A stretch of 33,153 bases of DNA from Mariniphaga sp. (lineage in GTDB: Bacteria; Bacteroidota; Bacteroidia; Bacteroidales; Prolixibacteraceae). Positions 5,264 to 33,153 of this stretch are shown one piece after another. The notes below the pieces were generated by a model, which had not been told where the DNA came from, did not search any database, and saw only the letters and a list, made by a program, of their open reading frames with translations. Made by a program: the position numbers and the translations under genes. The stretch spans positions 1-33,153 of the forward strand of contig JAAFHB010000031.1 of NCBI GenBank assembly GCA_010906965.1, in the 5' to 3' direction. Within the stretch, counting starts at the first letter, position 1; every line of letters starts with the position of its first letter.

Positions 5264-5276
5264 TCTTCCTTTTTAA

Positions 5277-5284
5277 TATATTTG
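5277..5284 (+). promoter_or_regulatory. Candidate -7 element upstream of the TolC-like/Wzc-like gene pair
   Basis: TATATTTG is an exact TAnnTTTG match in the 105-base gap after the transferase gene, about 85 bases before the next start. No TTTG lies at the proper -33 distance, so this could be an internal promoter of the locus or a chance match. Confidence 0.3.
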
Positions 5285-5368
5285 TATTCATAAGGTTTTG
5301 TCTCCTTACTTATCTTCACTGGTAATTATTTAGCAAGCCAATTCAGAAAATAATTTACACAATTTCTC

Positions 5369-8983: not shown

Positions 8984-10351
8984 TTGAGAACTGCGTATCA
9001 AAAGGTGACCCAGGAAGCAAATTTTCTTTCATTAGCGGGGAATATCACAATCGCTTTTTTCGGTTTTGCAGGTTTCGCTTTGATTGCCAGAAGTTTCCCG
9101 ATAGAAATATTCGGTCAATGGGTGCTATATATTTCAGCGGGTGCATTCATTGAGATGTTCAGATTTGGTATCACAAATACTGCAATTATAAGGTATCTGT
9201 CGGGAGTTGAGCATGAAGAACGTTTAAAGTTTATCGGGTCTAATGGATTCATAGGCCTGGTTGCCACAACAGTAATAGCTCTGGTAATTTGGGCATGCCA
9301 TTTCTTTTTTGCCGTACCAATAAAAAATGCCGGATACGAGCTTTTCTTTGTCTGGTATCCATTACTTGCCTTTATAAATCTCCCTTACAACAATTCGCTG
9401 GTCATATTGCAGGCTGATCAGCAATTCGGCAAAATACTATTTATCAAGTCTTTTGAAAGCGGAATTTTTTTCCTGATCTTGCTATTCAATTATTTCTTTC
9501 TTAAGATGACACTTGTACAATTAGTAGTGGTGCAATTAATCATTAATTTGATTTCCTCACTTATTTGTACTGTAAAAGGATGGGACGGACTCCGTTATCT
9601 AAGACATGCAACAAGACGAACCAACAAAGTTTTACTTGATTTTGGGAAATACACCACATTTACATTAATTGGGAGTAACTTATTACGAAGCGCGGATACG
9701 CTGATTATTAGTCTTAGCCCATTAGGAACCGCTGCAGTTGCACTCTATAGTATTCCTATGAAATTAACCGAATTACAGCAGATTCCACTACGAAGTTTTG
9801 TAGCAACTGCATTTCCGAAAATGTCAAAAGCAAGTGTTCAGGGAAAAATTGAAGAAGTAAAGAATCTGTTTTATACCTATAGCGGAGCAATGTCATATCT
9901 GTTTGTATTCATCTGCATTATAACATTTGTCTTTGCCGAGTACTTCGTTTTGATTTTAGGAGGAGCTCAATATGTAGGAACAGATCCGGCTACAGGAGCC
10001 AATCCCGTTACAATCATGAGAGTATTTTCTATTTATGGATTGTTGCTTCCAATTGATAGAATGACAGGAATTGGTCTGGACAGTATCAACAAACCCGGGA
10101 AAAACCTCATTAAAGTTGGCCTTATGGTAATTGCCAATGTTATAGGTGATTTGATTGCTATTTTCATATTTAAATCGCTTCTTATGGTTGCAATTGCTTC
10201 CATTTTATTTACGGTTGTCGGGATATTGGTTGGATTCTATTTTTTGGATAAAGAACTTCATCTTAAGCATCGCAAAGTATTCTCTGCCGGGCTTAAATTT
10301 TATGAGGACATGTATAATAAAATTAAAGCACACAAATCAAAGACAATTTAA
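8984..10351 (+). CDS. Polysaccharide flippase (Wzx-like, MOP superfamily)
   Basis: A 455-residue, strongly hydrophobic protein with about twelve membrane segments and the N-terminal layout of the polysaccharide synthesis/MatE group: a short cytoplasmic lead, then AGNITIAFFGFAGFALIARSFPI and FGQWVLYISAG. It should move lipid-linked repeat units across the inner membrane. The start is TTG at 8984. The frame has a stop at 8942 and no ATG before residue 58, which lies after TM1, so a TTG (or the GTG at 9005) must be used. The 130 bases before the gene carry no clear promoter. The mid-protein segment SNLLRSADTLIISLSPLG (residues 230-247) is typical of these flippases. Confidence 0.85.
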   Translation: MRTAYQKVTQEANFLSLAGNITIAFFGFAGFALIARSFPIEIFGQWVLYISAGAFIEMFRFGITNTAIIRYLSGVEHEERLKFIGSNGFIGLVATTVIALVIWACHFFFAVPIKNAGYELFFVWYPLLAFINLPYNNSLVILQADQQFGKILFIKSFESGIFFLILLFNYFFLKMTLVQLVVVQLIINLISSLICTVKGWDGLRYLRHATRRTNKVLLDFGKYTTFTLIGSNLLRSADTLIISLSPLGTAAVALYSIPMKLTELQQIPLRSFVATAFPKMSKASVQGKIEEVKNLFYTYSGAMSYLFVFICIITFVFAEYFVLILGGAQYVGTDPATGANPVTIMRVFSIYGLLLPIDRMTGIGLDSINKPGKNLIKVGLMVIANVIGDLIAIFIFKSLLMVAIASILFTVVGILVGFYFLDKELHLKHRKVFSAGLKFYEDMYNKIKAHKSKTI

Positions 10352-10373
10352 TCTTTAAAATATACAGGAATAA

Positions 10374-11876
10374 ATGATTATGCAAGGCAATGTTCATCCC
10401 TTCGAAATACAAACAGGTTCCGGCAAATTGGGGAAACCATTTTATGTTGTATCGATTCTGTGCATCGTTGCCATAGCTGCAGTACTGATAAGCCGATTGG
10501 GAGTTGCTGGTGGGTTTGCCCTGATCCTTATGCCATTCGTTGTTGCCTATTTCAATTTTCTATTCAGATTCCCCATAATTGGCTATTATTCAGCCGTTGC
10601 TCTTAGTTTTGTTTTGTTGGGATTAGGAAGGTATATTGACGATCTGCCGATTGGACTGGCAATGGACGGGCTGTTGATTTTAACTTATATAGCGCTAATA
10701 TTTAATAAATTTTACGATCGGGTTGATTGGAAACCAGCAAAAAAAGATATTACGCTTTTGGCTGTTATTTGGTTTGGGTATTCACTTCTGGAGGTGCTAA
10801 ATCCCGAGTCGCGAAGCTTTTCAGCCTGGATGTCGGGGATGCGTGGCATTTCCTTTTATATGGTATTAATGATCCCTCTTGCATTGCTATTTATAAATAC
10901 AAATCACAAACTAAATCTGTTTTTGTATTTGTGGGGAATATTTTCAATAATCGTGTCTCTGAAAGGAATCATGCAAAATACAATTGGGGTCGACCCCTGG
11001 GAAAAAGCCTGGCTCGATGCCGGAGCAGCTGAAACCCATATACTATTCGGGAAACTTCGTATCTTTTCTTTTCTGAGTGATGCCGGGCAATTTGGTGCCA
11101 ATCAGGCCTATTCAGCTGTTGTTGCCACAATAATTGCACTTTCCGTAAAAAGTCGTCGCAGTAAAATATTTTGCATCATTATTGCGGTTTTGGGGTTCTA
11201 TGGAATGTTATTATCAGGAACACGTGGCGCAATCAGTATTCCTTTAGCTGGGTTCGCACTCTATTTTTTTCTGAAAAAGAACATCCTAGTCATGATTTCC
11301 GGCGTTATTATTCTTCTCTCAGTATTCTTTTTCTTTAAATATACCTCAATTGGTCAGAATATTCAAGAAATCAGACGTATGAGATCGGCTTTCGACCCTA
11401 ATGATCCGTCGCTTCAGGTACGGATCGAAAATCAGAAAAAACTGTCTGTTTATCTTGCCTCGCGTCCCATGGGAGGTGGAATCGGACATGCCGGGGTAAA
11501 AGCAAAGAAATTTCTTCCGAATGCATTTCTTTCTCAAATTGCCACAGATAGCTGGTATGTCTTAATTTGGGCAGAACAGGGAATAATTGGATTATGTTTG
11601 CACCTGTTTATTCTTTTTTATATTCTGATCAAAGCATCATACCGAATTATGTTCCGAATCAGGGATCCTATTTTGAAAATGAAAATGGCTGCACTTGCAT
11701 CAGGTATGTTTGGAATTATGGTTGCATCCTATGGAAATGCAGTTTTGGGAACAATGCCTACAGGAATGCTATTATACACATCAATGGCAGTAATGTTAAA
11801 TACAGATATACTTGATAAAGAAGCTATTTCGAAGAACCAGGAAGAGAAGTCTCTTCACTCTGAAAACGAATATTAG
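10374..11876 (+). CDS. O-antigen ligase/polymerase-like membrane protein (Wzy/WaaL type)
   Basis: 500 residues with about ten to twelve membrane segments and one large external loop (about 323-398) between late segments, which is the layout of the Wzy_C/O-antigen ligase family. Visible family features are LLSGTRGAI at 279-287, an Arg-containing loop (DPSLQVRIENQK, 344-355), and GGGIGHAG at 367-374 before TDSWYVLIWAEQGIIG. Such enzymes use lipid-linked oligosaccharides to build or transfer glycan; from sequence alone I cannot tell polymerase from ligase. Its place between a flippase and glycosyltransferases favours a repeat-unit polymerase. ATGs at 10374 and 10380 are both possible starts. Confidence 0.83.
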   Translation: MIMQGNVHPFEIQTGSGKLGKPFYVVSILCIVAIAAVLISRLGVAGGFALILMPFVVAYFNFLFRFPIIGYYSAVALSFVLLGLGRYIDDLPIGLAMDGLLILTYIALIFNKFYDRVDWKPAKKDITLLAVIWFGYSLLEVLNPESRSFSAWMSGMRGISFYMVLMIPLALLFINTNHKLNLFLYLWGIFSIIVSLKGIMQNTIGVDPWEKAWLDAGAAETHILFGKLRIFSFLSDAGQFGANQAYSAVVATIIALSVKSRRSKIFCIIIAVLGFYGMLLSGTRGAISIPLAGFALYFFLKKNILVMISGVIILLSVFFFFKYTSIGQNIQEIRRMRSAFDPNDPSLQVRIENQKKLSVYLASRPMGGGIGHAGVKAKKFLPNAFLSQIATDSWYVLIWAEQGIIGLCLHLFILFYILIKASYRIMFRIRDPILKMKMAALASGMFGIMVASYGNAVLGTMPTGMLLYTSMAVMLNTDILDKEAISKNQEEKSLHSENEY

Positions 11877-11936: not shown

Positions 11937-12851
11937 ATGGAAAGGCCGCTTGTTTCAATTATTACAGTTAGTTACGACCATCCCGAGGTTACTTGCGCAT
12001 TGTTGGAGTCGTTACGTAATATCACCTACCCGAACATTGAAATTATTGTGGTCGACAATGCTTCTCCAAACGATGATCCGGCAATTATATATCAATTGTA
12101 TCCTGAAATAATTTTTATTCAAAGCAAAGAGAACCTGGGCTTTGCTGGCGGAAATAACCTGGGCATCCAGCAAGCAAAGGGGAAATATGTTCTGTTTCTG
12201 AATAATGATACGGAAGTTGAAATGGGATTTCTGGAGCCGCTGGTTGAAAAATTTGAAAAAAACAACAAAATTGGAGCAGTTAGTCCAAAGATAAAATTCT
12301 TCTACAAACCGGATACAATTCAATTTTCAGGACAAGCCCCTATCAATCCTTACACAATACGCAGCCACGGATTTGGATACGGAGTAAAAGATAGCGGCCA
12401 GTTTGATCATGATACACTTACCTCATTTGTACATGGTGCAGCAATGATGTTACCCATGGAAGTCATAAAAAAAGTGGGGTTGATGGCAGAGATTTATTTT
12501 CTGTATTACGAGGAACTTGACTGGGGTGCCCGAATTAGAAATGCTGGCTACGAGTTGTGGTATGTTCATAATTCAACTGTTTTGCACAAAGAATCGATTT
12601 CAACAGGAAGGCTTTCCCCTTTCAAAACATTCTACATGAACCGATCAAGGTTACTTTACCTCCGGCGTAATGTGAACAGCACCACATTCGTAGTAGCTTT
12701 GCTTTATCAACTATTCGTTTCAATTCCTAAGAATATGCTTTCTTTCATCTTTAAGAAAAATAGCGGGCATTTTAAAGCCTACTGCAATGCTGTTAATTGG
12801 CATATTAAAAATATGTTTATCAAAGACATACACGATAATCCAACCTTGTAA
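11937..12851 (+). CDS. GT2 family glycosyltransferase (rhamnosyltransferase-like)
   Basis: 304 residues with a GT-A fold of the GT2 group: the nucleotide-binding strand VSIITVSYDHPE, Asp40 in IIVVDNAS, GFAGGNNLGI at 68-77, the NND metal motif at 89-91 (LFLNNDTEVE), and YYEELDWGARIRNAGYE near 190-205, whose acidic residues supply the catalytic base. This pattern is common in rhamnosyl- and galactofuranosyl-type transferases that add one sugar to a lipid-linked chain, but the donor cannot be assigned. It has no membrane helix at the N-terminus. A hydrophobic C-terminal patch (LLYQLFVSI) may sit on the membrane. Confidence 0.88.
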   Translation: MERPLVSIITVSYDHPEVTCALLESLRNITYPNIEIIVVDNASPNDDPAIIYQLYPEIIFIQSKENLGFAGGNNLGIQQAKGKYVLFLNNDTEVEMGFLEPLVEKFEKNNKIGAVSPKIKFFYKPDTIQFSGQAPINPYTIRSHGFGYGVKDSGQFDHDTLTSFVHGAAMMLPMEVIKKVGLMAEIYFLYYEELDWGARIRNAGYELWYVHNSTVLHKESISTGRLSPFKTFYMNRSRLLYLRRNVNSTTFVVALLYQLFVSIPKNMLSFIFKKNSGHFKAYCNAVNWHIKNMFIKDIHDNPTL

Positions 12852-12877
12852 TTCAAATCTATTAATCCGAATTAGTC

Positions 12878-14089
12878 ATGAATACGGCATTATATACAAT
12901 ATTTCAAATAATACAAATCTTTGCGTTCATCGTATTATTGCTACCGACACTCTATATTTTGATATTTGCAGTTGCGGGATTATTTTACAAGCAACAATCC
13001 TACCCTATCCAGCCCACATTACGAAGAATAGCAGTACTTATTCCTGGTTATAAAGAAGATGATGTGATAATTGAGGTTGCAAAAGATGCTCTTGAACAGG
13101 AATATCCTCATCAAAAATATGATGTTGTGATAATTGCCGACTCCTTTCAAAAGGAAACAATTTCCAGACTACGGGAATTGCCTATCAAAGTTATCGAAGT
13201 TAAATTTGATAAAAGCACTAAATCGAAAGCCTTAAACAAAGCGATGGAGCAGTTGCCCGATGAATATGATATCGCAGTTGTACTTGATGCTGACAACTTA
13301 ATGGCTGCCGACTTCCTGACGAAAGTAAATGCAGCTTTTGAACAGCGTTTTATGGCAGTTCAAGGTCACCGGGCAGCTAAAAACATGGACACTCATCTGG
13401 CTATTCTCGATGCCGTTAGTGAAGAGATCAACAACCACATTTTCCGAAAAGGACATCGCGTTTTAGGCCTTTCTTCAGCAATCATTGGTTCAGGAATGGC
13501 ATTTAAATATGATTTTTTCAAAACGATGATGTTATCAGTAACAGCGATTGGTGGATTTGATAAGGAAATAGAACTTAAAATGCTTAAAGAGAAACACAAA
13601 ATTGCTTATCTTGATGATGCTTTAGTTTATGATGAAAAAGTGCAGAAAGCTGAAGTTTTCAGTAATCAGCGTCGACGTTGGCTCTCAGCACAGTTGCATT
13701 ACTTTCGCCAGGATTTTGGTTCGTCTTTGAAAGCTTTTATAACTCAGGGAAATATCGATTACTTTGATAAAGCGATTCAATTTATTCAACCACCAAGAAT
13801 CTTACTGCTTGGTGCGGTAATTTTAGTAAGTAATTTATTTATTCTGACCAATTGGTTCTTAAATATTTTAAGTTTAAGTATCATTTTATGGTTAATACTT
13901 CAGATTCTTTGTTTATTAGCCTTCTTGTTCTCAATTCCAGGTTCGTTTTACAATGTTGGCACCTTAAAAGCAATGGCAAGCTTACCAAAAGGCATGTTAC
14001 TAATGTTTGGCTCGTTGCTTAAAATCAAAGGAGCTAATAAGCAATTTATTCATACAAAACACACTGTTGTTAAACCTCCTATTAATTAA
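12878..14089 (+). CDS. Membrane GT2 glycosyltransferase with QxxRW motif
   Basis: 403 residues. There is a membrane helix at about 8-35, then a cytoplasmic GT-A domain: IAVLIPGYKEDDVI, Asp88 in VVIIADSF, DAD at 137-139 (VVLDADNL), GSGMAFKYDFF, and the QRRRW (QxxRW) motif at 264-268. At least two C-terminal membrane helices follow at about 312-370. The QxxRW motif and flanking helices resemble the cellulose-synthase/hyaluronan-synthase type of GT2, which can be processive and extrude product. In this locus it might instead add a single residue or a side chain. It begins 27 bases after the previous GT2, so the two are probably co-transcribed. Confidence 0.86.
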   Translation: MNTALYTIFQIIQIFAFIVLLLPTLYILIFAVAGLFYKQQSYPIQPTLRRIAVLIPGYKEDDVIIEVAKDALEQEYPHQKYDVVIIADSFQKETISRLRELPIKVIEVKFDKSTKSKALNKAMEQLPDEYDIAVVLDADNLMAADFLTKVNAAFEQRFMAVQGHRAAKNMDTHLAILDAVSEEINNHIFRKGHRVLGLSSAIIGSGMAFKYDFFKTMMLSVTAIGGFDKEIELKMLKEKHKIAYLDDALVYDEKVQKAEVFSNQRRRWLSAQLHYFRQDFGSSLKAFITQGNIDYFDKAIQFIQPPRILLLGAVILVSNLFILTNWFLNILSLSIILWLILQILCLLAFLFSIPGSFYNVGTLKAMASLPKGMLLMFGSLLKIKGANKQFIHTKHTVVKPPIN

Positions 14090-21661: not shown

Positions 21662-22819
21662 ATGAAAATCGGTATCGAAGGACAACGTCTTTACAGAAAT
21701 AAGAAACACGGGATGGATATGGTCGCTCTGGAACTGATTCGCAACCTCCAGGAGATCGATCATAAAAATGAATACGTCGTTTTTATCAAACCTGATATTG
21801 ACGATGAAGTTTTAAAGCAAACCTCAAATTTTAAGATTGTTAAATTAAAAGGTGGTTTTTATCCTCTGTGGGAACAATTTTCGTTGCCGGCTGCTGCCAG
21901 AAAAGAAGGGTGCCAGCTACTTCATTGCACAAGTAATACTGCCCCGGTAAATACCCGGATACCATTGATTGTTACCCTTCACGATATTATCTATATGGAA
22001 AGCAATTACGTGAAAATTTTAAAGGGTAGCGGTTCGTGGTATCAAAAAATGGGAAATATCTATCGGCGATTAGTGATTCCAAAAATCGTAAAAAAGAGCA
22101 GCAAGATTATAACAGTCTCCCATTTTGAGAAAAATAGAATTGGCCAGTTTTTCGGAATCGAGGGCGATAAAAGACTAACAGCGGTCTATAACGGAGTCAG
22201 TGAGCATTTTAAACCGATAACAGATAATATTGAATTGCAACGTGTCAAAATAAAATACAACCTTCCCGAGCATTACTTCTTTTTCCTTGGCAATACCGAT
22301 CCCAAGAAAAATACAAAAGGAACATTGAAAGCCTTTTCGGATTTTCTCAAACAAACCAATAGCGACTTGAAACTGGTAATGCTTGATTATGATCGGACAG
22401 AACTTGAAAAATTGCTTAGTGAAACTGATGATAAATCATTGATTAACAGTATTTATTTAACCGGATATGTTGTAAATACCGATTTACCTGCAATTTACAG
22501 TCAATGTCAGGTGTTTCTTTACCCTTCTCTACGCGAGAGTTTTGGGATACCGATGCTTGAGGCAATGGCTTGTGGTGTTCCTGTGATCACATCCAACACT
22601 TCCTCAATGCCTGAAGTCGCCGGATCAGCTGCATTTATAATTGACCCTTACAAACCAGCAGAAATCACCGATGCCCTGATTCAAATTACCAGCAATCCGG
22701 AATTAAGAAAGCAGTTAATTGATAAAGGATTGCAGCAATCGGCTAAATTTTCCTGGAAAGCCATGGCAAAAGATGTTCTTGATATATATGAACAAATTGG
22801 CAACGCGTTTGCTAAATAA
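21662..22819 (+). CDS. GT4 family glycosyltransferase
   Basis: 385 residues with a GT-B fold. The N-terminal half opens MKIGIEGQRLYRNKKHG, with VTLHDIIY near 104-111 and ITVSHFEKNRI near 150-160. The C-terminal half holds FFFLGNTDPKKNTKGTL, VFLYPSLRESFGIPMLEAMA with the E-x7-E pair Glu292/Glu300, and CGVPVITSNTSSMPEVAG. This is the standard retaining GT4 pattern found in mannosyl- and glucosyltransferases such as WbaZ-type proteins. It acts at the cytoplasmic face on lipid-linked sugar. The next gene begins 16 bases after the stop, so the two form an operon. Confidence 0.92.
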   Translation: MKIGIEGQRLYRNKKHGMDMVALELIRNLQEIDHKNEYVVFIKPDIDDEVLKQTSNFKIVKLKGGFYPLWEQFSLPAAARKEGCQLLHCTSNTAPVNTRIPLIVTLHDIIYMESNYVKILKGSGSWYQKMGNIYRRLVIPKIVKKSSKIITVSHFEKNRIGQFFGIEGDKRLTAVYNGVSEHFKPITDNIELQRVKIKYNLPEHYFFFLGNTDPKKNTKGTLKAFSDFLKQTNSDLKLVMLDYDRTELEKLLSETDDKSLINSIYLTGYVVNTDLPAIYSQCQVFLYPSLRESFGIPMLEAMACGVPVITSNTSSMPEVAGSAAFIIDPYKPAEITDALIQITSNPELRKQLIDKGLQQSAKFSWKAMAKDVLDIYEQIGNAFAK

Positions 22820-22835
22820 TTAAACATCAAGACAT

Positions 22836-24047
22836 ATGATTCAAAATAGGGATATAATAGTCGTTGGAATTCAACCCTGGGATATTGAAATTGGGAGCAA
22901 TTGTAAAAATATTGCAGAGGAATTTGCAAAAAACAATCGGGTGCTGTACGTGAACTCTCCGCTAGACCGAATTTCAATGTATCGGCAAAAAAAACTTGAT
23001 CGAATCAGAAAAAGAATAAATATTGTAAAAAGCGGAAAGCCTGAGTTAATCGAAATATCCACCAACTTATGGAATCTTTACCCTGCATGTCTGATTGAAT
23101 CAATTAATTGGATCAGGTCACCCAAATTGTTCGACTGGATAAATAAGATAAATAATAAACGGTTTGCCAAACAAATTAAGTTAGCCATTGAAAAGCTTGG
23201 ATTTCAAAACTATATCATTTTCAATGATAGCGATATGTTCAGAAGTTTCTATATGAAGGAACTACTAAAACCGGAAACATATATCTACTACACACGTGAT
23301 AATCTGATTTCAGTTGATTACTGGAAGAAGCAGGGGGTGCGACTTGAGGCGCAGCATATGCAAAAAGCTGATTTGGTAGTTGCCAACTCGACTTATCTGG
23401 CAACTCTGGCAAAAAAATTCAATCCAAGTTCATTTTATGTTGGTCAAGGTTGTGATGTAAGTATGTTTGATGCAAAATTAATTACAGCAGTTCCGTCTGA
23501 TATTCAGAATATTCCAAAACCAATAATTGGATATATAGGAGCACTGTTATCACTTCGACTCGACATCAAAGTTATTGAACACATTGCTGAAAGTCGTCCT
23601 GAATGGAGCGTTGTTCTTGTTGGACCTGAAGATGACGCATTTAAAACCAGCAAATTGCATCAGCTTAAAAACGTATATTTCCTCGGAAATAAAAACGGAA
23701 ATGAACTCCCCTCCTACCTCATTCATTTCGATGTGGCTATTAATCCGCAAATTCTGAGTCCGGTAACAATCGGTAATTATCCCCGTAAAATTGACGAATA
23801 TCTGGCTATGGGAAAACCCACAGTTGCCACCAAAACAGAAGCCATGAGCATATTTTCCGATTTTACCTATCTTGCTGAAAACAAGAATGAATATATTACC
23901 TTCATTGAAAAGGCGCTTCGGGAAGATAATGATCAAATTCGCCTAAAAAGGGAAGAATTTGCGCACAACCATACCTGGAAAAATAATGTCTTCGAGATTT
24001 TCGGGGCAATTGAAACAGTTAAATCATCAAAATTAAAATCTAAATAA
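22836..24047 (+). CDS. GT-B glycosyltransferase (GT4/TuaH-like)
   Basis: 403 residues. The N-terminal domain starts RDIIVVGIQPWDIEIGSNC and has RVLYVNSPLDR; the link region has YIYYTRDNLISVDYW and ADLVVANSTYLA. The C-terminal domain shows PIIGYIGALLSLRLDIKV, WSVVLVGPEDD, VYFLGNKNGNELPSYL and NYPRKIDEYLAMGKPTVAT, where the Glu of KIDEYLA takes the place of the usual GT4 nucleotide-contact Glu. This pattern is common in transferases of the TuaH type in surface-polysaccharide loci. The donor is unknown. The stop codon overlaps the next ATG by one base (TAATG), so it is translationally coupled to the acyltransferase gene. Confidence 0.85.
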   Translation: MIQNRDIIVVGIQPWDIEIGSNCKNIAEEFAKNNRVLYVNSPLDRISMYRQKKLDRIRKRINIVKSGKPELIEISTNLWNLYPACLIESINWIRSPKLFDWINKINNKRFAKQIKLAIEKLGFQNYIIFNDSDMFRSFYMKELLKPETYIYYTRDNLISVDYWKKQGVRLEAQHMQKADLVVANSTYLATLAKKFNPSSFYVGQGCDVSMFDAKLITAVPSDIQNIPKPIIGYIGALLSLRLDIKVIEHIAESRPEWSVVLVGPEDDAFKTSKLHQLKNVYFLGNKNGNELPSYLIHFDVAINPQILSPVTIGNYPRKIDEYLAMGKPTVATKTEAMSIFSDFTYLAENKNEYITFIEKALREDNDQIRLKREEFAHNHTWKNNVFEIFGAIETVKSSKLKSK

Positions 24048-24673
24048 TGAGCATCGTTGAAAGAATCAAATCAAACCCGAAGCTTAAACAATTAGTTTTA
24101 AACCTTATGATGCCTAAAAACCAATCAAGGCCAAGGCTTTGGGTGAAATTATTTTTGAATCCTTTTAAACACAAAAAAGGAAAGAATTCCCGGATTTGTC
24201 GGTATACACGAATGGATGTGATGCCATTCAACAATTTCGAACTGGGAAATGATTCAACTATCGAAGATTTTTGTACTATCAATAACGGAGTTGGGGATGT
24301 ATTGATTGGTGACCGCACCCGAATTGGAATGAGTAATGTTTTGATCGGTCCCGTAACCATTGGTAATGATGTTATGTTTGCTCAAAACATTGTTCTCTCA
24401 GGATTGAATCATGGGTATGAAGATATTACAATTACTCCTCACAAACAGCCAGTTACGAAGAATAAAATTACAATTGAAGATGAAGTATGGATTGGAGCCA
24501 ATTCAGTTATTGTGGCAGGAGTTACCATCGGCAAACATTCGGTAATTGCAGCCGGATCAATCGTAACCAAAGACATACCTCCTTTCTCAGTTGCAGCAGG
24601 GAATCCTGCCAAAGTAATCAAGCAGTATAACCTCGAAACGGGAATATGGGAACGTGTTACTATAAAGGCTTAA
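24047..24673 (+). CDS. Hexapeptide-repeat O-acyltransferase (left-handed beta helix)
   Basis: 208 residues. After a basic N-terminal lead (1-55) come hexapeptide repeats of the LbH fold: IEDFCTINNGVGDVLIG, TRIGMSNVLIGPVTIG, a loop with His122 in GLNHGYED, then ITIEDEVWIGANSVIVAGVT and IGKHSVIAAGSIVTKDIP, closing with AAGNPAKVI. The closing motif and the loop His are typical of WcaF/serine-acetyltransferase-like enzymes that move acetyl (or another acyl) from CoA to a sugar hydroxyl. Here it probably decorates a sugar of the repeat unit. It overlaps the preceding GT gene by one base. Confidence 0.9.
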   Translation: MSIVERIKSNPKLKQLVLNLMMPKNQSRPRLWVKLFLNPFKHKKGKNSRICRYTRMDVMPFNNFELGNDSTIEDFCTINNGVGDVLIGDRTRIGMSNVLIGPVTIGNDVMFAQNIVLSGLNHGYEDITITPHKQPVTKNKITIEDEVWIGANSVIVAGVTIGKHSVIAAGSIVTKDIPPFSVAAGNPAKVIKQYNLETGIWERVTIKA

Positions 24674-24719: not shown

Positions 24720-25910
24720 ATGCAAGTTGTGCAAGTAATATTCTGGATACTTCTTTTTATTGTATTTTATGCCTATGTTGGCTATGGTATACTTTTATTC
24801 GCAATTATTCTCGTCCGAAGAATGCTTGGGCTTTCGAAAGTGCGCAACGAACGTTCTGATTACGAGCCAGAGGTTACCATTTTTATCGCCGCATACAACG
24901 AAAAAGATTTCATTGCTGAAAAGATTAAAAATACATTCGAACTTGAATACCCGGCGAATAAACTACATATGATTTGGGTCACAGATGGTTCGGACGATGG
25001 AACTCCTGAAGCACTACTCAATTACGAAGGAATAGAAGTACACCATCTCCCGCAACGGAATGGAAAAATCGGGGCAATGAACCGTGGGATGCAATTCGTC
25101 AAAACACCTGTTGTTATTTTTTGCGATGCAAATACGATGCTCGGAAACGAATCGGTTCGCAGAATTGTAAAGCTTTTTAGCGATCCTAAGGTTGGATGCG
25201 TTTCGGGTGAAAAGCGTATTTTCGGGAAGGACAAAGATGCTGCCGCCGGTGCTGGTGAAGGACTTTATTGGAAATACGAATCGAAACTTAAAAAATGGGA
25301 CGCAGAACTTTATTCCGTGGTTGGTGCTGCCGGAGAGTTGTTTGCTATCAGAACTGAACTCTATCAGGAAGTTGAAAAAGATACCTTACTCGACGATTTT
25401 ATTATTTCGCTCAGAGTTGCCCAAAAAGGCTATACGATACAGTATGATCCTGAAGCTTATGCAATTGAAAATGCTTCAGCCAACGTGAAGGAAGAACTAA
25501 AACGCAAAATCAGGATATCGGCAGGTGGAATTCAATCTGTAATCAGACTTAGTTCGTTACTGAATATTTTCAAATACGGGACGTTATCGTTTCAGTATAT
25601 ATCGCACCGTGTGTTGCGCTGGACACTCGCACCACTTTCACTACTATTTCTTATTCCTTCCGGATTATTTTTAGCAGTCAAGGAAGGGATTTTAGAGTTT
25701 GGATTTTACAGCATCTTATTTTGGCTTCAGATGTTATTCTATTTTAGTGCATTACTTGGCTGGTACCTCGAAAACAAATCAATTCGAATTAAGCTTTTGT
25801 TTGTTCCTTACTACTTTTTCATTATGAATTTATCAGTTTTTCTGGGATTTAAGCGTTACTTAAAGGGTACACAATCAGTAAACTGGGACAGGGCAAAACG
25901 AGGCAAATAA
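24720..25910 (+). CDS. Membrane GT2 glycosyltransferase
   Basis: 396 residues. There is an N-terminal membrane helix at about 7-33, then a GT-A domain: EVTIFIAAYNEKDFI, WVTDGSDDGTPE (Asp89 region), NGKIGAMNRGM at 114-124, DAN at 136-138 and GAAGELFAI at 202-210. The acidic TLLDDFIISLRV at 222-233 and RKIRISAGG at 262-270 take the place of the catalytic base and QxxRW region. Two or three C-terminal membrane helices follow at about 302-375. It resembles poly-GlcNAc/hyaluronan-type GT2 enzymes with a DDG motif. With the GT2 at 12878 this makes two membrane-bound enzymes of this kind in one locus. It starts 46 bases after the acyltransferase stop. Confidence 0.87.
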   Translation: MQVVQVIFWILLFIVFYAYVGYGILLFAIILVRRMLGLSKVRNERSDYEPEVTIFIAAYNEKDFIAEKIKNTFELEYPANKLHMIWVTDGSDDGTPEALLNYEGIEVHHLPQRNGKIGAMNRGMQFVKTPVVIFCDANTMLGNESVRRIVKLFSDPKVGCVSGEKRIFGKDKDAAAGAGEGLYWKYESKLKKWDAELYSVVGAAGELFAIRTELYQEVEKDTLLDDFIISLRVAQKGYTIQYDPEAYAIENASANVKEELKRKIRISAGGIQSVIRLSSLLNIFKYGTLSFQYISHRVLRWTLAPLSLLFLIPSGLFLAVKEGILEFGFYSILFWLQMLFYFSALLGWYLENKSIRIKLLFVPYYFFIMNLSVFLGFKRYLKGTQSVNWDRAKRGK

Positions 25911-25929: not shown

Positions 25930-27615
25930 ATGCATAAAAGTCTGGCAATATTTCTCTTAGGTGGATTACTTTCAACAACACACATTGCAATTGGTCAAAA
26001 AACCAGTTACCTGATTGATATTGACAAATTGTACATCGATGCCACCGATCAAGCTTACAAAAACATTAAACCTGGTGATACACTATTATTTGCAGCCGGA
26101 AATCGCGACTATCTATTAATTAAAAATTTCCAGGGCCAACCGGGAAAACCAATTGTGATGATGAATACAGGTGGTGAAATTATCATCGATACCGATCATT
26201 ACTATGGAATATCCATCCAGAATTGCCGTTATTTTAAATTTACAGGTACAGGAGACCCAAATAAGACTTACGGTATTCAGATAAAAAGAGTTGCAAATGG
26301 TGGCGGAATTGGGATTGGCGATTTAAGCTCTGACTTTGAACTCGACCACGTTTCGGTTGAGAACTGTTTAATTGGTGGTATCTACGCTAAAACAGATCCT
26401 GATTGTTCTTTAACTTCCGTCAGGAGTGCTTTTACTCAATATAATACCAATATTCACGACAACTATATTGCGAATGTTGGCAACGAAGGATTGTATGTTG
26501 GAAGTTCAAGCTATTGGGGGCAAACTGTGAATTGTAATGGAAATGACATGGTCCTGATGCCTGGTTTACTCGAAGGGGTAAAAATCTACAACAACATCAT
26601 CAGGTATTCTGGTTGGGATGGCATTCAGGTAAGTTCTGCCTCCAAAAATTGTCAGATATATAACAATACTGTGCTGTTCGACAGTCAATCGGAGACAGAT
26701 TCACAGATGTCCGGGATATTAATTGGAGGTGGCTCAAAATGTGATTGTTATAACAATTATATCAGTCAGGGCAAAGGAGATGGAATCGAAAGCCATGGTT
26801 TAGGTGGTTATCGTATATTCAACAATATAATCTTTGATGCAGGCCTCAGTTTTAAACCAAATGATATTACCCTGATGAAGTACGGTATTTTTGTGACTGA
26901 TATTTCGGTTCAAAAGGACTCGTCCTTTTACATTCAGCACAATGATATTATCAACCCTAAATCGGAAGGTATCAGATTTTCAAGTATTAAGAGTAAAAAT
27001 AACCTGATAGCTTCCAACGTAATCATCAATCCTGGGAATTTCGATTACTACGCAAACGGGAATACCAGTTTCACTGGAAACGACGCTTACATTATGTTTC
27101 AGTACACTCAATCAGAAGCGATTATCAAAAATAACTATTTGGCACGAAATGCCAATTCCGTAGGTTTTTCATCAACAAATATGCAATTGCCCTTTGATTT
27201 CAAATTAGTTGCAGGTTCTCCGCTGATTGACGGTGCAGATATCGATAAAAATATTAGCTTTGATTTTTCAGGTTTTACTCGACCTTACGGAGTAAAGTCA
27301 GATATTGGCGCCTTTGAATACGATTTTGCAACGCCGGTTGAAATCCGGCCAATTGTAGCTGATAATTTGATCAGGCTATTGCAAAATCCTGTGAAAGACT
27401 TTCTATTCATCAAATTACCTAAAAATTCGGATTCTGTTATTTATCTAAAAGTTTTCGATCTGAACGGTAAATTAATTCTTCAACTAAAACAATCGGATCT
27501 GTCTATTGGAAACCAGGTTATTCTGGCAAATGTTTCGCAAATAGTTCCTGGAGTATATGTTTACACAATTCGAGTTGGTGAAAATATAAGTTCAGGTAAG
27601 TTTTTAAAATTTTAG
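25930..27615 (+). CDS. Secreted parallel beta-helix protein with type IX secretion C-terminal domain
   Basis: 561 residues. A signal peptide (about 1-22) ends before Gln-Lys-Thr. The body (60-460) is a right-handed parallel beta-helix of pectate-lyase type, with many 'N.I.....GI.......n..I.nN.i' turns such as GVKIYNNIIRYSGWDGIQVS and DCYNNYISQGKGDGIESHG, and the closing SPLIDGADI ... DIGAFEYDF seen in such proteins. Residues about 475-561 form a Por-type sorting tail (NLIRLLQNPVKDFL, LKVFDLNGKLIL, VPGVYVYTIRVG, GKFLKF), so the protein should cross the outer membrane through type IX secretion and become surface-bound or released. It may bind, cut or epimerise the polymer made by this locus. 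No catalytic residues can be assigned with confidence. Confidence 0.87.
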   Translation: MHKSLAIFLLGGLLSTTHIAIGQKTSYLIDIDKLYIDATDQAYKNIKPGDTLLFAAGNRDYLLIKNFQGQPGKPIVMMNTGGEIIIDTDHYYGISIQNCRYFKFTGTGDPNKTYGIQIKRVANGGGIGIGDLSSDFELDHVSVENCLIGGIYAKTDPDCSLTSVRSAFTQYNTNIHDNYIANVGNEGLYVGSSSYWGQTVNCNGNDMVLMPGLLEGVKIYNNIIRYSGWDGIQVSSASKNCQIYNNTVLFDSQSETDSQMSGILIGGGSKCDCYNNYISQGKGDGIESHGLGGYRIFNNIIFDAGLSFKPNDITLMKYGIFVTDISVQKDSSFYIQHNDIINPKSEGIRFSSIKSKNNLIASNVIINPGNFDYYANGNTSFTGNDAYIMFQYTQSEAIIKNNYLARNANSVGFSSTNMQLPFDFKLVAGSPLIDGADIDKNISFDFSGFTRPYGVKSDIGAFEYDFATPVEIRPIVADNLIRLLQNPVKDFLFIKLPKNSDSVIYLKVFDLNGKLILQLKQSDLSIGNQVILANVSQIVPGVYVYTIRVGENISSGKFLKF

Positions 27616-27647: not shown

Positions 27648-30600
27648 ATGAATATCCAAAATAAAATAACATGTATCGTCGTTGGCGAGGGAAATCTACC
27701 ATTACGGTGCATTGGAATTCTCAAAGATCACGGCATCACTATCCAGGCATTGGTTTCGGGAGACGATTGGCTGCTTCATGAGAATGTGGCTGAAAGCTTT
27801 CCTAAATACAGTAATCTTTCTGATCTAACAGTCTTTGAACCGGTTGATTTTATTTTCAGTATCAACAACAGCTTAATCCTCAAGAAGTCATTCACCTCTC
27901 TGGCCAAAATCATGGCAATTAATTATCACGATGCCCCGCTTCCGCGATATGCTGGCATGTACGCAACTAACTGGGCTATATTGAATGGAGAAATGGAACA
28001 TGGCATATCGTGGCACGAGGTGGTTGACAAAATTGATGCCGGTGATATTGTTGCCAGTCAACCACTTCCTGTTATGCCAAACGACACTGCCCTTTCGCTC
28101 AATACGCGATGCTTCGAAGCCGCTTTAAAAAGCTTTGCCGATTTAATCGATTCAATTGTTGAAAACAGATTAACGCCGGTCCCTCAGAATTTGGAAAACC
28201 GAACATATTATCCATATGCTTCACGTCCGGAATCTTTAGGTCTGATAACCCATAAAATGACAGCCAGATCAGCAGATTCCTTGATTCGGGCTACTAATTT
28301 CAGCAGTCATTATGCGAATGAATTTACGCTGCCCTTGCTTTATATTCACAGCGAATACTATATAGTTACAAAAGCATCAGTCGTTTTTGATAAATCAGGA
28401 ATTTCTGGTAAAGTAATTGATTATAAAGGGAAAAGAGGCTTCTATTGTCAGGATGGATTAATTATTCCCGAAATTATTTACGATAAAAACGGCCATAAAA
28501 CCAAAATTGAAGAAATTTTTGGTATTGGTATTCAATTGATAATACCAGATAAAACCATTGCAAACAGTGCCTTAAATTACTTTGGCAATGTGGCTAAATA
28601 TGAACCTTTCTGGCGAAAACAACTTGAAATTGCTGAGTTTTTAACTTGGCCGGTACTGAATGGAGAACATAGTCGATCAATTACAAAATCGAACATAAAT
28701 AATCATTTAATTACCCAACTTGAAGCGCTTTTTCCGGGTCAGCAAATTGATGATATCCTGGTAGCTTCGCTAATGCTTTTCTTTCTTCGGATATCCAACC
28801 AAACATCAGGATCATTAGGATTTGTATCCTCTGAACTACTTCTGAGCATTAAAGAATTCGAGGATTTTTTCAATCCATGGGTGCCGTTCAATGTTGCAAT
28901 TGATAATTCGAATAGCGTAATAGCTGAAGTTGGAAGAATTTCAGGAATAATAAGGAAGGCTGAATTATCTAAAACATTCTTACGCTCAACAAGAATTCGT
29001 TATCCTGAATTACGAGGTAATGCTTCTGATATACCAAACATCATTCTTTCAAAAGCTTCGGTTGAAACTAATTATCAGAATGCTCATAGTATTATTATTA
29101 ATGTTGGAACCGCTGAAATCAGCTTCTGCATGCCTGATAATTCTAATTCTCCAGGCGCAAATTCGTTGGTTGAGAGTTTTGAAATGTTCCTGAATAACAT
29201 CATTCAATCACCTGGTCAGTCGGTTAAACAAATCGGGCTGTTGACTGCTGCAAAAGCACTGGAAATTATACAATCTGTTAATCGGGAGGTTTGTGAGCCC
29301 GTGATCGTAAATGACGTTATAGATCAGTTCTTTGCTGTATCTGTTAAGTATTCCGAACATACTGCTATTTTTGATTCAGGGAAAAGCTATTCTTACAACA
29401 CCTTCGAAATAGATATCGAGAATCTGGCAGCTAAAATATTGATTTTAGGTATTTTGCCTGATCAGATTGTTGCCGTTGCCATCGACCGCACCTACAATTA
29501 TTTTGTAGCAATTATGGCAATACTGCGTTGTGGCGCCAGTTTTCTGCCCATCGATCCGACGATGCCGTCAGAAAGAAAACAGTTTTTCTGTACCGATGCA
29601 AGTGTTTCGCTAATTCTTACTGATCATGCTATTTCAGATTTGGCCGATAGTATTCCGGTACTCAATGTCTCAGAAATAGAGAATTCGGGTCCAAATTATA
29701 ATCAAAAAATTGTTTATAATCCTGATAGTGTAGCCTATATAATTTATACAAGTGGTTCAACCGGAGTTCCGAAGGGTGTAAAAATATCACGAAAGGCGCT
29801 GGCTAATTTCATTTCCGGTGCATTGGGGTTGTACAAAATCACAGATAAAGACCATGTATTGCAGTTTTCGAGTCTTGCTTTTGATGCCAGTATTGAAGAA
29901 ATTTTTGCCTCATTTTGCTCGGGAGCTTCCCTCTATTTACGTACAGCCGAAATGCTATTAGCCGATGAGTTGCTGAATTTTTCGCACATACATCAGATTT
30001 CAGTTTGGGACTTACCCACCGCATTTTGGCGACAAGTCATTCAATCAGAAGCTTACACTGACAAAGATCTTCCGGATAGTTTGAGATTAGTAATCATTGG
30101 CGGTGAAGCTGTATCAACTAATGATGTAGTTTTATGGAATAAACGGGAAACTAAGCACAGGCTGCTTAACACTTATGGACCAACAGAAACGACAGTCGTC
30201 GCACTTGCATACGAAATAAAAACCGGATATAAACCCGAAACGACAGTTCCAATCGGTCAGCCTCTGCCGGGATACAAACTATATATTTCTGATACGAACC
30301 GTCAAATCGTTCCTGAAGGAATTGCAGGCGAACTACTTGTGGCGGGCGAAAGTTTGGCGCTGGGATACCTGAACCGTGAACAGGAACAAAACAAAGCTTT
30401 TATCTGGTTCGAAACTCCTGACAATGGACTTCAACGATGTTATTGCACGGGCGATTTAGTTATAGCCAGTAAAGATGGATTAGTCTATTATCAGGGACGA
30501 GTTGATGCTCAGGTCAAAATACGGGGATTCCGAGTAGAGCCGGGTGAAATTGAGCAACAAATCTGCTCGATGAATGGTGTTGAAACATGTGTCGTTGCTG

Positions 30601-31940
30601 TTTCCGCGAATGCTTTGGGAGAAAAATCGCTCTTTGCCTTTTATACTGAGAAAAATACGGTAACAAATGCGCAAACCATTAAAGATGAATTAAAGAAAAG
30701 GCTGCCGGCATACATGATTCCTGAAATGATTTTAAAAGTTGATGAGATTCCATTAACTGGCAATGGAAAAGTTGATAAAAAATGTCTGATTGGCACGGCA
30801 AAAAGGAAATCACAACAATTGACCAACGAAACAGCAAAACCGACCAACGAAACAGAAGAGTTTGTTCTTAACCTTTGGAAGAAAATTCTTTCAATTGAAG
30901 CAATGGGAATTGATGATGATTTCTTTGATTTAGGTGGCCATTCGTTAAAAGCTGTTCAGTTAATGGCCGAAATTAAAAAACAGAGAGAAATCAATATTCC
31001 ATTGGCTTCGCTGATTCAGAATTCCACAGTTCGCACATTCGCACCACTACTTTATTCGGATAAAAAAGATAGCTTTTGGCAATGTTTGGTCCCCATTCGT
31101 CCAAAAGGAGCCAAAACACCTCTTTTCCTGATTCATGGCGCAGGCCTGAATGTGCTTCTTTATCAATCGCTTACTCATCATTTAAAAGATGACCGCCCTA
31201 TATATGCATTCCAGGCAAAGGGATTGGATGGAAGCAGAGAATTGAGCAATGATATAGAGGAAATGGCAAACGACTACATTGAGGAAATCAAAAAAATTCA
31301 ACCAAATGGCCCGTATATGCTGCTTGGATTCTCACTTGGAGGTTTTATTGCCTACGATATGGCTAAGAAACTGGTGGCTCAAGGTAATGAAGTTGGTTTT
31401 GCCGGAGTTATTGATTCGGTTTCGTCAATGGCCAAACATATCCAATCTTCTTTTGGTCGAAAGCTTTTCAAAATCAAGGTATCATTGATTAAACCAATCT
31501 ATGTTACATGGTTATTGATAAAGGAACCTATGGATGGAAAAAAACAGCTTCTGAAAAATAAATACAAAAGCATACGGTTCTCTATAATCTTCAGACTAAT
31601 TAAACTGGGAATCATGAAAGAAAAAGATCGAAAGATCAAAATCGAAGATGGGCAGCCCATGTTTTTATCGGATAATATAGAGATGGCAATGACAGAGGCA
31701 CTCGAAAAATATGAAATCACTCCTACATCCATTCAGCTGGATTTATTTAGAGCCGGAAAGCCGACATTCTACATTCCAAACAGAAATGATTATGGATGGA
31801 GCAAATTTGCCATGAAAGGGGTTATTGTTCATACATTGCCAAGTGAACACTCCCGAATATTTGCACCACCAAATGACAAACATTTTGCTGAAGTGCTTGA
31901 TCAAAGGTTAGATGAAATTGAATCAAAAACAAAAAAATAA
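27648..31940 (+). CDS. One-module NRPS-like protein: formyltransferase, half condensation, adenylation, carrier, thioesterase
   Basis: 1430 residues. Residues 1-300 are a formyltransferase of the Fmt/ArnA type, with Asn92, His94 and Asp130 in INYHDAPLP and DKIDAGDIV, followed by an Fmt C-terminal-like part. Residues 305-540 match only the C-terminal lobe of a condensation domain, without HHxxxDG. The adenylation domain (550-1050) has YIIYTSGSTGVPKG, NTYGPTE, YCTGDLV, GRVDAQVKIRGFRVEPGEIE and Lys1041 in LTGNGK. The carrier domain has Ser1099 in DLGGHSLKA. The thioesterase has Ser1229 in GFSLGG, Asp1256 and His1401. It should activate one amino acid, hold it on the carrier, perhaps N-formylate it as LgrA's first module does, and release or transfer it. 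A 32-base gap follows the beta-helix gene, and the PPTase gene starts 3 bases after the stop. Confidence 0.9.
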   Translation: MNIQNKITCIVVGEGNLPLRCIGILKDHGITIQALVSGDDWLLHENVAESFPKYSNLSDLTVFEPVDFIFSINNSLILKKSFTSLAKIMAINYHDAPLPRYAGMYATNWAILNGEMEHGISWHEVVDKIDAGDIVASQPLPVMPNDTALSLNTRCFEAALKSFADLIDSIVENRLTPVPQNLENRTYYPYASRPESLGLITHKMTARSADSLIRATNFSSHYANEFTLPLLYIHSEYYIVTKASVVFDKSGISGKVIDYKGKRGFYCQDGLIIPEIIYDKNGHKTKIEEIFGIGIQLIIPDKTIANSALNYFGNVAKYEPFWRKQLEIAEFLTWPVLNGEHSRSITKSNINNHLITQLEALFPGQQIDDILVASLMLFFLRISNQTSGSLGFVSSELLLSIKEFEDFFNPWVPFNVAIDNSNSVIAEVGRISGIIRKAELSKTFLRSTRIRYPELRGNASDIPNIILSKASVETNYQNAHSIIINVGTAEISFCMPDNSNSPGANSLVESFEMFLNNIIQSPGQSVKQIGLLTAAKALEIIQSVNREVCEPVIVNDVIDQFFAVSVKYSEHTAIFDSGKSYSYNTFEIDIENLAAKILILGILPDQIVAVAIDRTYNYFVAIMAILRCGASFLPIDPTMPSERKQFFCTDASVSLILTDHAISDLADSIPVLNVSEIENSGPNYNQKIVYNPDSVAYIIYTSGSTGVPKGVKISRKALANFISGALGLYKITDKDHVLQFSSLAFDASIEEIFASFCSGASLYLRTAEMLLADELLNFSHIHQISVWDLPTAFWRQVIQSEAYTDKDLPDSLRLVIIGGEAVSTNDVVLWNKRETKHRLLNTYGPTETTVVALAYEIKTGYKPETTVPIGQPLPGYKLYISDTNRQIVPEGIAGELLVAGESLALGYLNREQEQNKAFIWFETPDNGLQRCYCTGDLVIASKDGLVYYQGRVDAQVKIRGFRVEPGEIEQQICSMNGVETCVVAVSANALGEKSLFAFYTEKNTVTNAQTIKDELKKRLPAYMIPEMILKVDEIPLTGNGKVDKKCLIGTAKRKSQQLTNETAKPTNETEEFVLNLWKKILSIEAMGIDDDFFDLGGHSLKAVQLMAEIKKQREINIPLASLIQNSTVRTFAPLLYSDKKDSFWQCLVPIRPKGAKTPLFLIHGAGLNVLLYQSLTHHLKDDRPIYAFQAKGLDGSRELSNDIEEMANDYIEEIKKIQPNGPYMLLGFSLGGFIAYDMAKKLVAQGNEVGFAGVIDSVSSMAKHIQSSFGRKLFKIKVSLIKPIYVTWLLIKEPMDGKKQLLKNKYKSIRFSIIFRLIKLGIMKEKDRKIKIEDGQPMFLSDNIEMAMTEALEKYEITPTSIQLDLFRAGKPTFYIPNRNDYGWSKFAMKGVIVHTLPSEHSRIFAPPNDKHFAEVLDQRLDEIESKTKK

Positions 31941-31942
31941 GT

Positions 31943-32620
31943 ATGAAATGGGAAAATTCCGTCAATTTACCGTATCTGAATAAAAATGAAGATGCAATGG
32001 TAATTATTTATGGAACTGACTTTCATATTAATTCACCAACTTTTCCTGAGATACTTACTCATGAAGAATTAATTTATTCAGAAAAATTTAAAAACGGAGG
32101 GCATAAAATATCGTGGCTTTCCTGCAGAGCAACTTTACGATTAATTTTAGGCAATTATCTGAATAAAAATCCGACTGAAGTTGAATTAAAAAAAGGTCGG
32201 TTTGGTAAACTCTATTTGCCTGCAACAGATTTATTTTTTAATGTCAGTCATTCAAACAATGCATTTTTGCTTGGGTTTAGTGTTGGAGGAAGGATCGGCG
32301 TAGATATCGAACTGCTTGATGGGTCTGAAGATCTGAGTTCAATGGTGAGTTATGCATTTTCAGAAGTTGAAGCCAAGTCATGTAATTATGGACAAAAATG
32401 CGAACGATTTACAGAAATATGGACGCTAAAGGAGGCCTTTCTCAAAGCAATCGGTATTGGTCTTGTAGATAAGTTAACAGCAATCACCGTTATCGAGTGC
32501 GAACAGAATGAGATTATGCGTTTAAAATTGAATCAAAAATCATTTATTTGTCCGAATGGAGAAACGGCAAGCATCGTCTACAGGAAAAATAAAACTGTAA
32601 AATTTATCTGGCTGAAATAG
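31943..32620 (+). CDS. Sfp-type 4'-phosphopantetheinyl transferase
   Basis: 225 residues. The Sfp/Gsp family motifs are all present: FFNVSHSNN at 98-106, GVDIELLDG with metal-binding Asp121 and Glu123, and WTLKEAFLKAIGIGL with Trp160, Lys163, Glu164 and Lys168. The length matches the family. It moves the phosphopantetheine arm of CoA to a carrier-protein serine. It starts two bases after the NRPS-like stop codon, so its natural partner is almost surely Ser1099 of that protein. An EPS locus with its own such enzyme implies that the carrier domain is used in the host pathway. Confidence 0.93.
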   Translation: MKWENSVNLPYLNKNEDAMVIIYGTDFHINSPTFPEILTHEELIYSEKFKNGGHKISWLSCRATLRLILGNYLNKNPTEVELKKGRFGKLYLPATDLFFNVSHSNNAFLLGFSVGGRIGVDIELLDGSEDLSSMVSYAFSEVEAKSCNYGQKCERFTEIWTLKEAFLKAIGIGLVDKLTAITVIECEQNEIMRLKLNQKSFICPNGETASIVYRKNKTVKFIWLK

Positions 32621-33063: not shown

Positions 33064-33153
33064 ATGAAAGTCGCAATTGTTGGAAGTGGATACGTAGGTC
33101 TGGTAACCGGAACTTGTTTCGCAGAAGTAGGGATCGAAGTCGTGTGCGTTGAC
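33064..33153 (+). CDS. Nucleotide-sugar dehydrogenase (UDP-glucose 6-dehydrogenase type), 5' end only
   Basis: Thirty codons reach the window edge with no stop. The peptide opens [20 protein letters not shown] and continues [10 protein letters not shown]. This is the Rossmann NAD-binding start (GxGYVG) of the UDP-glucose/GDP-mannose dehydrogenase family, and the GYVGLVTG(T)CFAE version is usual in UDP-glucose 6-dehydrogenases (Ugd/TuaD). The enzyme would supply a uronic acid donor for the polysaccharide. The family is certain enough; the exact substrate is not, because only the cofactor site is visible. Confidence 0.85.

Follow-up and report, generated by a model that had tools for sequence, protein, structure and literature searches.

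A stand-alone, probably formylating nonribosomal peptide synthetase module within an exopolysaccharide locus of Mariniphaga sp., with a possible role in glycan decoration

We studied a stretch of 33,153 nucleotides from Mariniphaga sp. (Bacteroidota, Prolixibacteraceae; assembly GCA_010906965.1, contig JAAFHB010000031.1), hereafter the window, in which a Wzx/Wzy-type exopolysaccharide (EPS) locus with its sugar-phosphate transferase, Wzx, Wzy, Wzz/Wzc-like protein, outer-membrane protein and glycosyltransferase genes on one strand also contains one open frame of 1430 amino acids (aa) encoding a nonribosomal peptide synthetase (NRPS; 27648..31940, + strand). A sequence-only reading had described this protein as an N-terminal formyltransferase with the Asn/His/Asp set followed by a complete adenylation-carrier-thioesterase module, and this description was confirmed by Pfam domains, by the invariant Asn92, His94 and Asp130 and by intact motifs. 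To this we add a half condensation domain between formyltransferase and adenylation domain, a 4′-phosphopantetheinyl transferase (PPTase) gene and the start of a UDP-glucose dehydrogenase-like (UGD) gene at the contig end, none of which that reading had mentioned. The domains follow each other in this order:

27648..28547, + strand: formyltransferase (F); Pfam Formyl_trans_N, invariant Asn92/His94/Asp130, nearest solved structures ArnA
28584..29237, + strand: half condensation domain (hC), the C-terminal lobe of a condensation (C) domain; hhalign against C domains, Pfam Condensation in the relative L029
29325..30791, + strand: adenylation domain (A), code DAEDIGTVVK; Pfam AMP-binding, best NCBIfam match MxcG, below cut-off
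30855..31052, + strand: carrier (T), GGHSL; Pfam PP-binding
31095..31937, + strand: type I thioesterase (TE), GFSLG with conserved Asp and His; Pfam Thioesterase, alignment, TE clade

The F domain comprises a catalytic N-domain (residues ~1–190) and a C-terminal part extending to residue ~300, with Pfam Formyl_trans_N at residues 66–161 (60.4 bits, cut-off 26.1), and its three catalytic residues do not vary in any of three overlapping alignments (9, 52 and 48 sequences, that of the window included). The A domain is covered by AMP-binding (566–908, 217 bits) and AMP-binding_C (967–1041), the carrier by PP-binding (1072–1132, 51 bits, GGHSL at 1096) and the TE by Thioesterase (1158–1259, 87 bits, GFSLG at 1227), with Asp and His conserved in the alignment at the usual TE positions; together with the Ser of GFSLG, they presumably form the TE triad. 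Among three locus copies, identity reaches 79–81% in the F N-domain, 83–85% in T, 73–82% in TE and 73–77% in A, compared with 45–53% in hC. Since the F N-domain is thus nearly as conserved as T and TE and well above hC, F appears to be under constraint and does not look like a relic.

Between F and A, no Pfam model matched residues ~313–530 of the NRPS protein (~220 residues). A profile of this hC region built from 60 family members aligned with columns 184–416 of 416 of a set of 25 condensation domains (99.2%, hhalign), the HHxxxD motif of which lies near column 131, outside the aligned span; HHxxxDG was found in 0 of the 83 F-hC stretches tested. In the relative L029, Pfam Condensation matched the same lobe directly (positions 194–451 of 456, 35.2 bits, cut-off 30.6). 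Because both the profile and the L029 match cover the C-terminal lobe only, we describe the architecture as F-hC-A-T-TE.

The ten code positions of the A domain, which we take from the GrsA scheme, were placed by motif alignment and read DAEDIGTVVK identically in the window, G011, L036, L037, L038, G026, G220, G321 and G373, and DAEDIGTVIK in G1626. The best NCBIfam match of this domain is MxcG (448 bits, below the cut-off of 2300). The A domains of MxcG (myxochelin) and BacB-Lys are lysine domains, as predicted for that of the window, and belong to siderophore and peptide pathways; to our knowledge, neither an F domain nor an EPS context is part of these pathways. In the available part of a published table, the BacB-Lys code is DAESIGSV (PMC3207962), which shares 6 of 8 letters with DAEDIGTV, Glu-containing codes being known to accept non-lysine substrates as well. 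Given this resemblance on the one hand and, on the other, the Glu-containing ApnA codes that also accept Arg and others (PMC5311044, in the part available), lysine is the likely substrate and a basic amino acid in general is more likely still.

The NRPS gene is embedded in the following gene row, with five glycosyltransferase (GT) genes upstream of it on the same strand:

4058..8853, + strand: sugar-phosphate transferase, outer-membrane efflux-type protein and Wzz-like/LysM protein
8984..11876, + strand: Wzx-like flippase and Wzy-like polymerase/ligase (Pfam Polysacc_synt, Wzy_C)
11937..14089, + strand: two GT2 glycosyltransferases (GT2a, GT2b)
21662..22819, + strand: GT4 glycosyltransferase GT4a
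22836..24047, + strand: GT4 glycosyltransferase GT4b
24047..24673, + strand: hexapeptide-repeat acyl/acetyltransferase
24720..25910, + strand: GT2 glycosyltransferase GT2c, 75–90% identical in 12 other family loci
25930..27615, + strand: beta-helix protein with type IX secretion (T9SS) tail (Pfam Beta_helix, Por_Secre_tail), the locus marker, directly upstream of the NRPS gene
31943..32620, + strand: PPTase (Pfam ACPS, 46.7 bits)
33064..33153, + strand: start of the UGD gene, first 30 codons, frame cut at the contig end

The PPTase gene starts 2 bp past the NRPS stop, and the name of the UGD gene was taken from G011, a genome of the same genus that has it complete in the equivalent place; it is likewise complete in G1626. 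The EPS gene row also includes, at 14125–21603, two large hybrid histidine kinases, one of CHASE4/GAF and one of PAS/GAF type. The beta-helix protein, which may act on the exported polymer, adjoins GT2c in all 13 family loci compared, and frames of ~1000–1300 aa matching most of this protein occur elsewhere in some genomes.

The genome that carries the window (5.87 Mb in 509 contigs, 99.6% complete, 7.9% contamination) gave no match in a search for the Condensation family, while the same search was positive in 6 of 10 other genomes and in 4 of 14 controls. Carrier domains were matched four times in this genome, namely in the window NRPS, once each in two small single proteins and in a frame of 824 aa. 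Because no Condensation match was found in its own genome, the NRPS module stands alone, with no receiving second module found, and a trans-acting partner module was rejected for the same reason. The earlier claim that the EPS locus holds a single module headed by F and closed by a TE of its own was thus upheld, also with regard to the position of the gene, which is kept in 4 of 4 genomes. Chance or contamination was also rejected, since the locus of this contig is nearly collinear with that of G011; bearing on contamination as well, the C69 peptidase of the contig is 95% identical to that of G008.

Indeed, in all four genomes with the enzyme (three genera), the F-NRPS and PPTase genes stand directly behind the same beta-helix gene, and the NRPSs of the other three (G011, G1587 and G1626) are 65–72% identical to that of the window over the whole protein. 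In G011, the locus is nearly collinear between Wzx and the NRPS gene (68% identical), followed by PPTase, UGD, an epimerase-type gene and RmlD; the second kinase is missing there, an FkbM-type gene is present and GT2c is split into two frames. G1587 (contig G1587:C132, also denoted L036; genus g387) carries its UGD gene at the opposite end of the locus, and G1626 belongs to genus g8. Overall, 13 family loci with the GT2c–beta-helix pair were compared, 11 of them found via the beta-helix gene in 41 relatives; NRPSs are present in 7 of these 11 loci and in 9 of 13 when G1587 and G1626 are included, both of which were found via a TE search, a biased route that can add only NRPS-bearing loci. The NRPSs in the loci are as follows:

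G000, G011, G1587: F-hC-A-T-TE
G1626: F-hC-A-T-TE plus two-module (hC)A-T-C-A-T-TE
G001, G002 (contig break), G024: two-module (hC)A-T-C-A-T-TE
G024: additional A-T-TE
G009: C-A-T-TE
G013: single-module (hC)A-T-TE

The family loci of G008, G010, G012 and G015 contain no NRPS; the contigs of G010 and G015 are ~11 kb long, yet span GT4a to UGD, where the NRPSs sit in other loci. The presence of an NRPS tracks GT4b (at least 69% identity), which occurs in 9 of 9 NRPS loci (7 of 7 without the two TE-found ones) against 0 of 4 NRPS-free loci. Every Condensation match of G001, G009, G013 and G024 falls within the EPS locus, and G011 has one additional NRPS outside it. The codes of the NRPSs without F are DILQLGMVWK, DILQIGSIYK and DILQLGGIYK, which we take to be Gly-like, and G024 also has the lysine-like DAESIGTVIK. 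Note that the G013 NRPS (L175:12331-15744 of the reverse complement) begins with the half condensation domain, without F. Other genes that vary between EPS loci (L174:8905-9972, L178:15246-17027, L176:13053-13988) encode acyltransferase-3, asparagine-synthase-like, phosphoribosyltransferase-like and FkbM methyltransferase proteins.

The kinship of the TEs differs from that of the A domains. Between the window and the NRPSs of the locus without F, the TEs are 42–45% identical and the A domains 32–34%, which is background level here; TEs outside the locus group and the F clade of the window are 23–37% identical to that of the window among the 45 of 46 rows listed. The TE tree groups all 11 TEs from EPS loci in a single clade of 16 rows (SH-aLRT 99), and TE matches of at least 40% identity in 129 relatives number 12, of which 11 lie in EPS loci and one in a four-module NRPS of G044. 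This G044 protein lies outside such a locus, and a second one stands on an 8-kb contig where the context is unseen. The four-module protein (L269:3631-17427, same order) reads A-T-C-F-hC-A-T-C-A-T-C-A-T-TE, with an internal F and the lysine-like codes DAEDIGSVVK and DAEDIGTIVK. These identities suggest a shared release or transfer step, carried by the TE, for changing amino-acid donors selected by A, and the small NRPSs of the relatives (Gly-like and lysine-like codes) with their related TEs would fit exchangeable aminoacyl or dipeptidyl decorations of a shared glycan type.

With moderate confidence, we propose that the stand-alone NRPS is part of the EPS pathway and yields formyl-lysine, formylated at either amine, which is placed on the polymer or released. 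We infer the steps from the domains, motifs, code, TE kinship and lone module read in the sequence, and from synteny. The PPTase would prime the carrier, the A domain would load L-lysine or, less probably, another basic amino acid, and F would transfer a formyl group from formyl-tetrahydrofolate to one amine, either one, of the carrier-bound lysine. The TE would then free the formyl-lysyl group or transfer it to a saccharide, either before the repeat unit is assembled or while assembly is under way, giving a polymer with formyl-lysine; transfer to a sugar or glycan, already suggested by the sequence-only reading, keeps this conditional standing. A product in free form, with formyl-lysine or one of its derivatives being secreted or serving as a signal and the place in the EPS locus reflecting co-regulation, appears unlikely without being negligible. 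It would agree with a normal TE at the end of the NRPS, with no sugar-aminoacyl transferase adjoining it, and with the two-module relatives G026, L037, L038, G220 and G321, which are without the locus glycan genes in the fetched stretches; the constant position in 4 of 4 genomes, the recurrence in the locus of other NRPSs with unrelated A domains and the tracking of GT4b argue against it.

Beyond the locus, the F-hC-A family is broad, with at least 571 of 582 candidate stretches encoding relatives and F fused to hC-A in many phyla, and rare in the order of the window (6 of 393 genomes, E 1e-25). At least two glycosyl- or sugar-transferase genes were found near only 12 of 90 F-hC family loci, and many family members belong to larger NRPSs; these counts were made with models seeded with window genes and with uneven flanks, and polyketide synthase (PKS) genes were not searched. 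The neighborhood with sugar transferases expected from the sequence-only reading thus mostly fails for the family at large and holds for the nearest clade and for the locus NRPSs of relatives. As to the nature of F, its best solved-structure match is ArnA (73.4 bits), other sugar formyltransferases also rank high, and Formyl_trans_N with catalytic Asn/His/Asp is common to F and the sugar N-formyltransferases. On these grounds, F could be a sugar N-formyltransferase that was captured through fusion with a module loading lysine and acts on a sugar. We consider this very unlikely, as the F-hC-A fusion occurs in many phyla, mostly away from glycan genes, and no aminotransferase or amino-sugar gene was found among the 19 window open reading frames (ORFs) scanned.

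Several side observations concern this family. A class of F-hC-A proteins carries a luciferase-type insert in A and Gly-type codes (DIL...; L035, L072, L074, L075, L086, L106, L108, L112), the insert protein of L035 being annotated as MupA/Atu3671 family, and 8 of the 22 loci in this class have at least two glycosyl- or sugar-transferase genes close by, a second association of F-NRPSs with glycan loci. This class may be kin of the conglobatin, oxazolomycin and rhizopodin F modules. Free-standing formyltransferases, mostly ~300 aa, of other Bacteroidota (L182–L190, L243:6318-7235, L244:5669-6550) match the F part of the F-hC profile, two of them being Formyl_trans_N plus Formyl_trans_C by Pfam, and are a possible source of the F domain. 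Relatives on rhizobial plasmids stand beside transposases (L034 of Sinorhizobium meliloti, with NRPS frames in several pieces; L030 and L032 of Bradyrhizobium).

In a 93-row tree, the window falls in an 8-row Bacteroidota clade (SH-aLRT 100) made of three EPS copies, L037/L038, G026, G220 and G321. All five relatives outside EPS loci (meaning that the fetched stretch had no match to any glycan gene of the locus) are A-T-C-F-hC-A-T-TE systems with an adjacent PPTase, split into two genes in L037 and with an extra T-TE in G220. They share with the window the F-hC clade and the code DAEDIGTVVK and still have a first module as well as a complete C domain, both of which the window NRPS, in its EPS locus, is without. 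Because all five carry F in the second module, F would have sat in an elongation module, and the simplest origin of the EPS form would be a loss of the first module together with the C domain.

This placement bears on known formylating systems. According to the available part of a review (PMC8949500), F domains of NRPSs are uncommon and confined to the initiation module, for which F-A-T is the known layout. LgrA of linear gramicidin formylates a carrier-bound amino acid, and F stands in the first module of the conglobatin, oxazolomycin and rhizopodin lines as well (PMC5053139, PMC4504003, parts available). The sequence-only reading had likened the window protein to LgrA, and indeed both have an N-terminal formyltransferase with Asn/His/Asp fused to A-T, formylation being predicted here. 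The likeness was not supported on closer comparison, since in LgrA F is attached to A without an intervening domain and its module supplies others downstream, whereas the window NRPS has hC between F and A, a terminal TE, a lysine-like code, no C-domain match in its genome and an F closer to ArnA, and its nearest relatives have F in the second module. LgrA kinship of F was rejected, the best LgrA match being weak (29.7 bits against 73.4 for ArnA). The conglobatin F module, predicted for Gly, is ahead of PKS modules, in contrast to the lysine-like code without further module here (PMC4504003, part available). An ordinary initiation module supplying other NRPS modules in trans with a formyl-aminoacyl group, a reading that the F-A-T layout of PMC8949500 (part available) could favor, seems extremely unlikely, given the absence of a Condensation match in the genome, the TE of the protein itself and the second-module F of its nearest relatives.

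Where F is internal, the A-domain code follows a pattern. In a first sample (78 of the 93 tree rows, 15 being dropped without a readable third code letter), Glu stands at the third code position in 10 of 10 modules with internal F, in 8 of 46 with N-terminal F and no insert (three of the 8 being EPS copies) and in 0 of 22 with the luciferase-type insert (Fisher's p = 1.2e-6 for the sample without the insert class, kinship ignored). A second sample of 26 loci, drawn from the phyla of two genomes with known internal F, with five close-kin rows (DGEDIGTVVK) and the insert called from length alone, gave Glu in 8 of 8 new internal F modules, 1 of 3 N-terminal ones without insert (L220 with Glu, L219 and L238 without) and 0 of 7 with insert. 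Left out of it were L242 (repeats L049), L241 (on the contig of L076), L240 (begins at the edge of its contig), L221 (F and A encoded by different frames) and the free-standing F of L243 and L244, and the internal-F L230 and L239 gave no code, their A lying beyond reach. In total, internal F goes with third-position Glu in 19 of 19 cases, including one from G044, with kinship uncorrected, and a C domain directly precedes F in 18 of these 19 (in L037 it is in the neighboring gene); L089 has C-A-T. Side-chain formylation would explain this pattern, since an F placed in an elongation module would leave the N-terminus uncapped and diamino acids have a further amine available. The kinship of the window F with F domains of elongation modules suggests the side-chain amine.

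As a broader scheme, we tentatively suggest exchangeable NRPS decorators, in which a conserved TE transfers NRPS-made groups (aminoacyl, dipeptidyl or formyl-lysyl) onto a glycan acceptor that the loci have in common and the F of this lineage, evolved in elongation modules, formylates the lysine side chain. The same pathway with the alpha-amine formylated, as in linear gramicidin, is an alternative of real though limited weight, in which the internal-F pattern would reflect kinship or a preference of C or A. LgrA offers the precedent, and many N-terminal-F relatives have codes read as amino acids without a side-chain amine; the 19 of 19 internal-F codes with Glu at the third position speak against it.

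Other observations weigh against decoration of the polymer or against the side-chain amine. Five other-family GT4b loci (47–70% identity), fetched from 31 further genomes matched, have no NRPS in the fetched stretch (0 of 5), and because of them GT4b is not sufficient for an NRPS. No Pfam match to MBOAT/DltD or another dedicated aminoacyl transferase was found in the 19 window ORFs scanned, the rest of the genome not being searched, and the TE may simply hydrolyse. The TE clade that unites the EPS loci also holds L037, L038, L167 and two G044 proteins, i.e., TEs from outside the locus too, and L073 is a stand-alone F-hC-A-T-TE with a lysine-like code and none of the locus genes nearby. To these are added the wider substrate range of the ApnA codes and, for the Glu pattern, the N-terminal-F modules that also have Glu (8 of 46 and L220), the origin of the second sample and its close-kin rows, and the independent pairs on supported branches (~2 for, 0 against), which are too few to test.

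Acylation of a cell-surface polymer by an AMP-forming ligase and a carrier is known from DltABCD, which D-alanylates teichoic acids, and from rfbK-N, which attaches tetronate in a Vibrio O-antigen. For the window NRPS, polymer acylation would be a comparable process, and the Dlt-type feature present in the polymer locus is an A domain plus carrier. In contrast to Dlt, A, carrier and TE are here joined in one NRPS with a formylating domain, with no MBOAT/DltD partner in the ORFs scanned. Literature searches, with most subscription journals outside coverage, found no work on a formylating NRPS with thioesterase in an exopolysaccharide context, nothing on topic by title for NRPS and capsule, and nothing for the Atu3671 or luciferase-type insert. 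Among the matches listed, nothing was on topic by title for lysine, N-formyl and polysaccharide, and formyl-lysine from an NRPS was not found in titles, term counts or abstract starts. No F domain in an elongation module is described in the available parts of PMC8949500, PMC1894796, PMC10212144, PMC5053139, PMC4504003 and PMC10587159. These negatives do not prove that nothing of the kind has been published.

Altogether, NRPSs are usually seen as makers of free peptides, and the module described here, a formylating one, is found by itself in a polysaccharide locus, in which relatives carry other small NRPSs. In addition, the F family has members in elongation modules, with diamino-acid-like codes in all those read, contrary to the statement in the available part of the review (PMC8949500). 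If the proposed decoration is true, this locus would provide a route by which activated and modified amino acids reach bacterial surface glycans.

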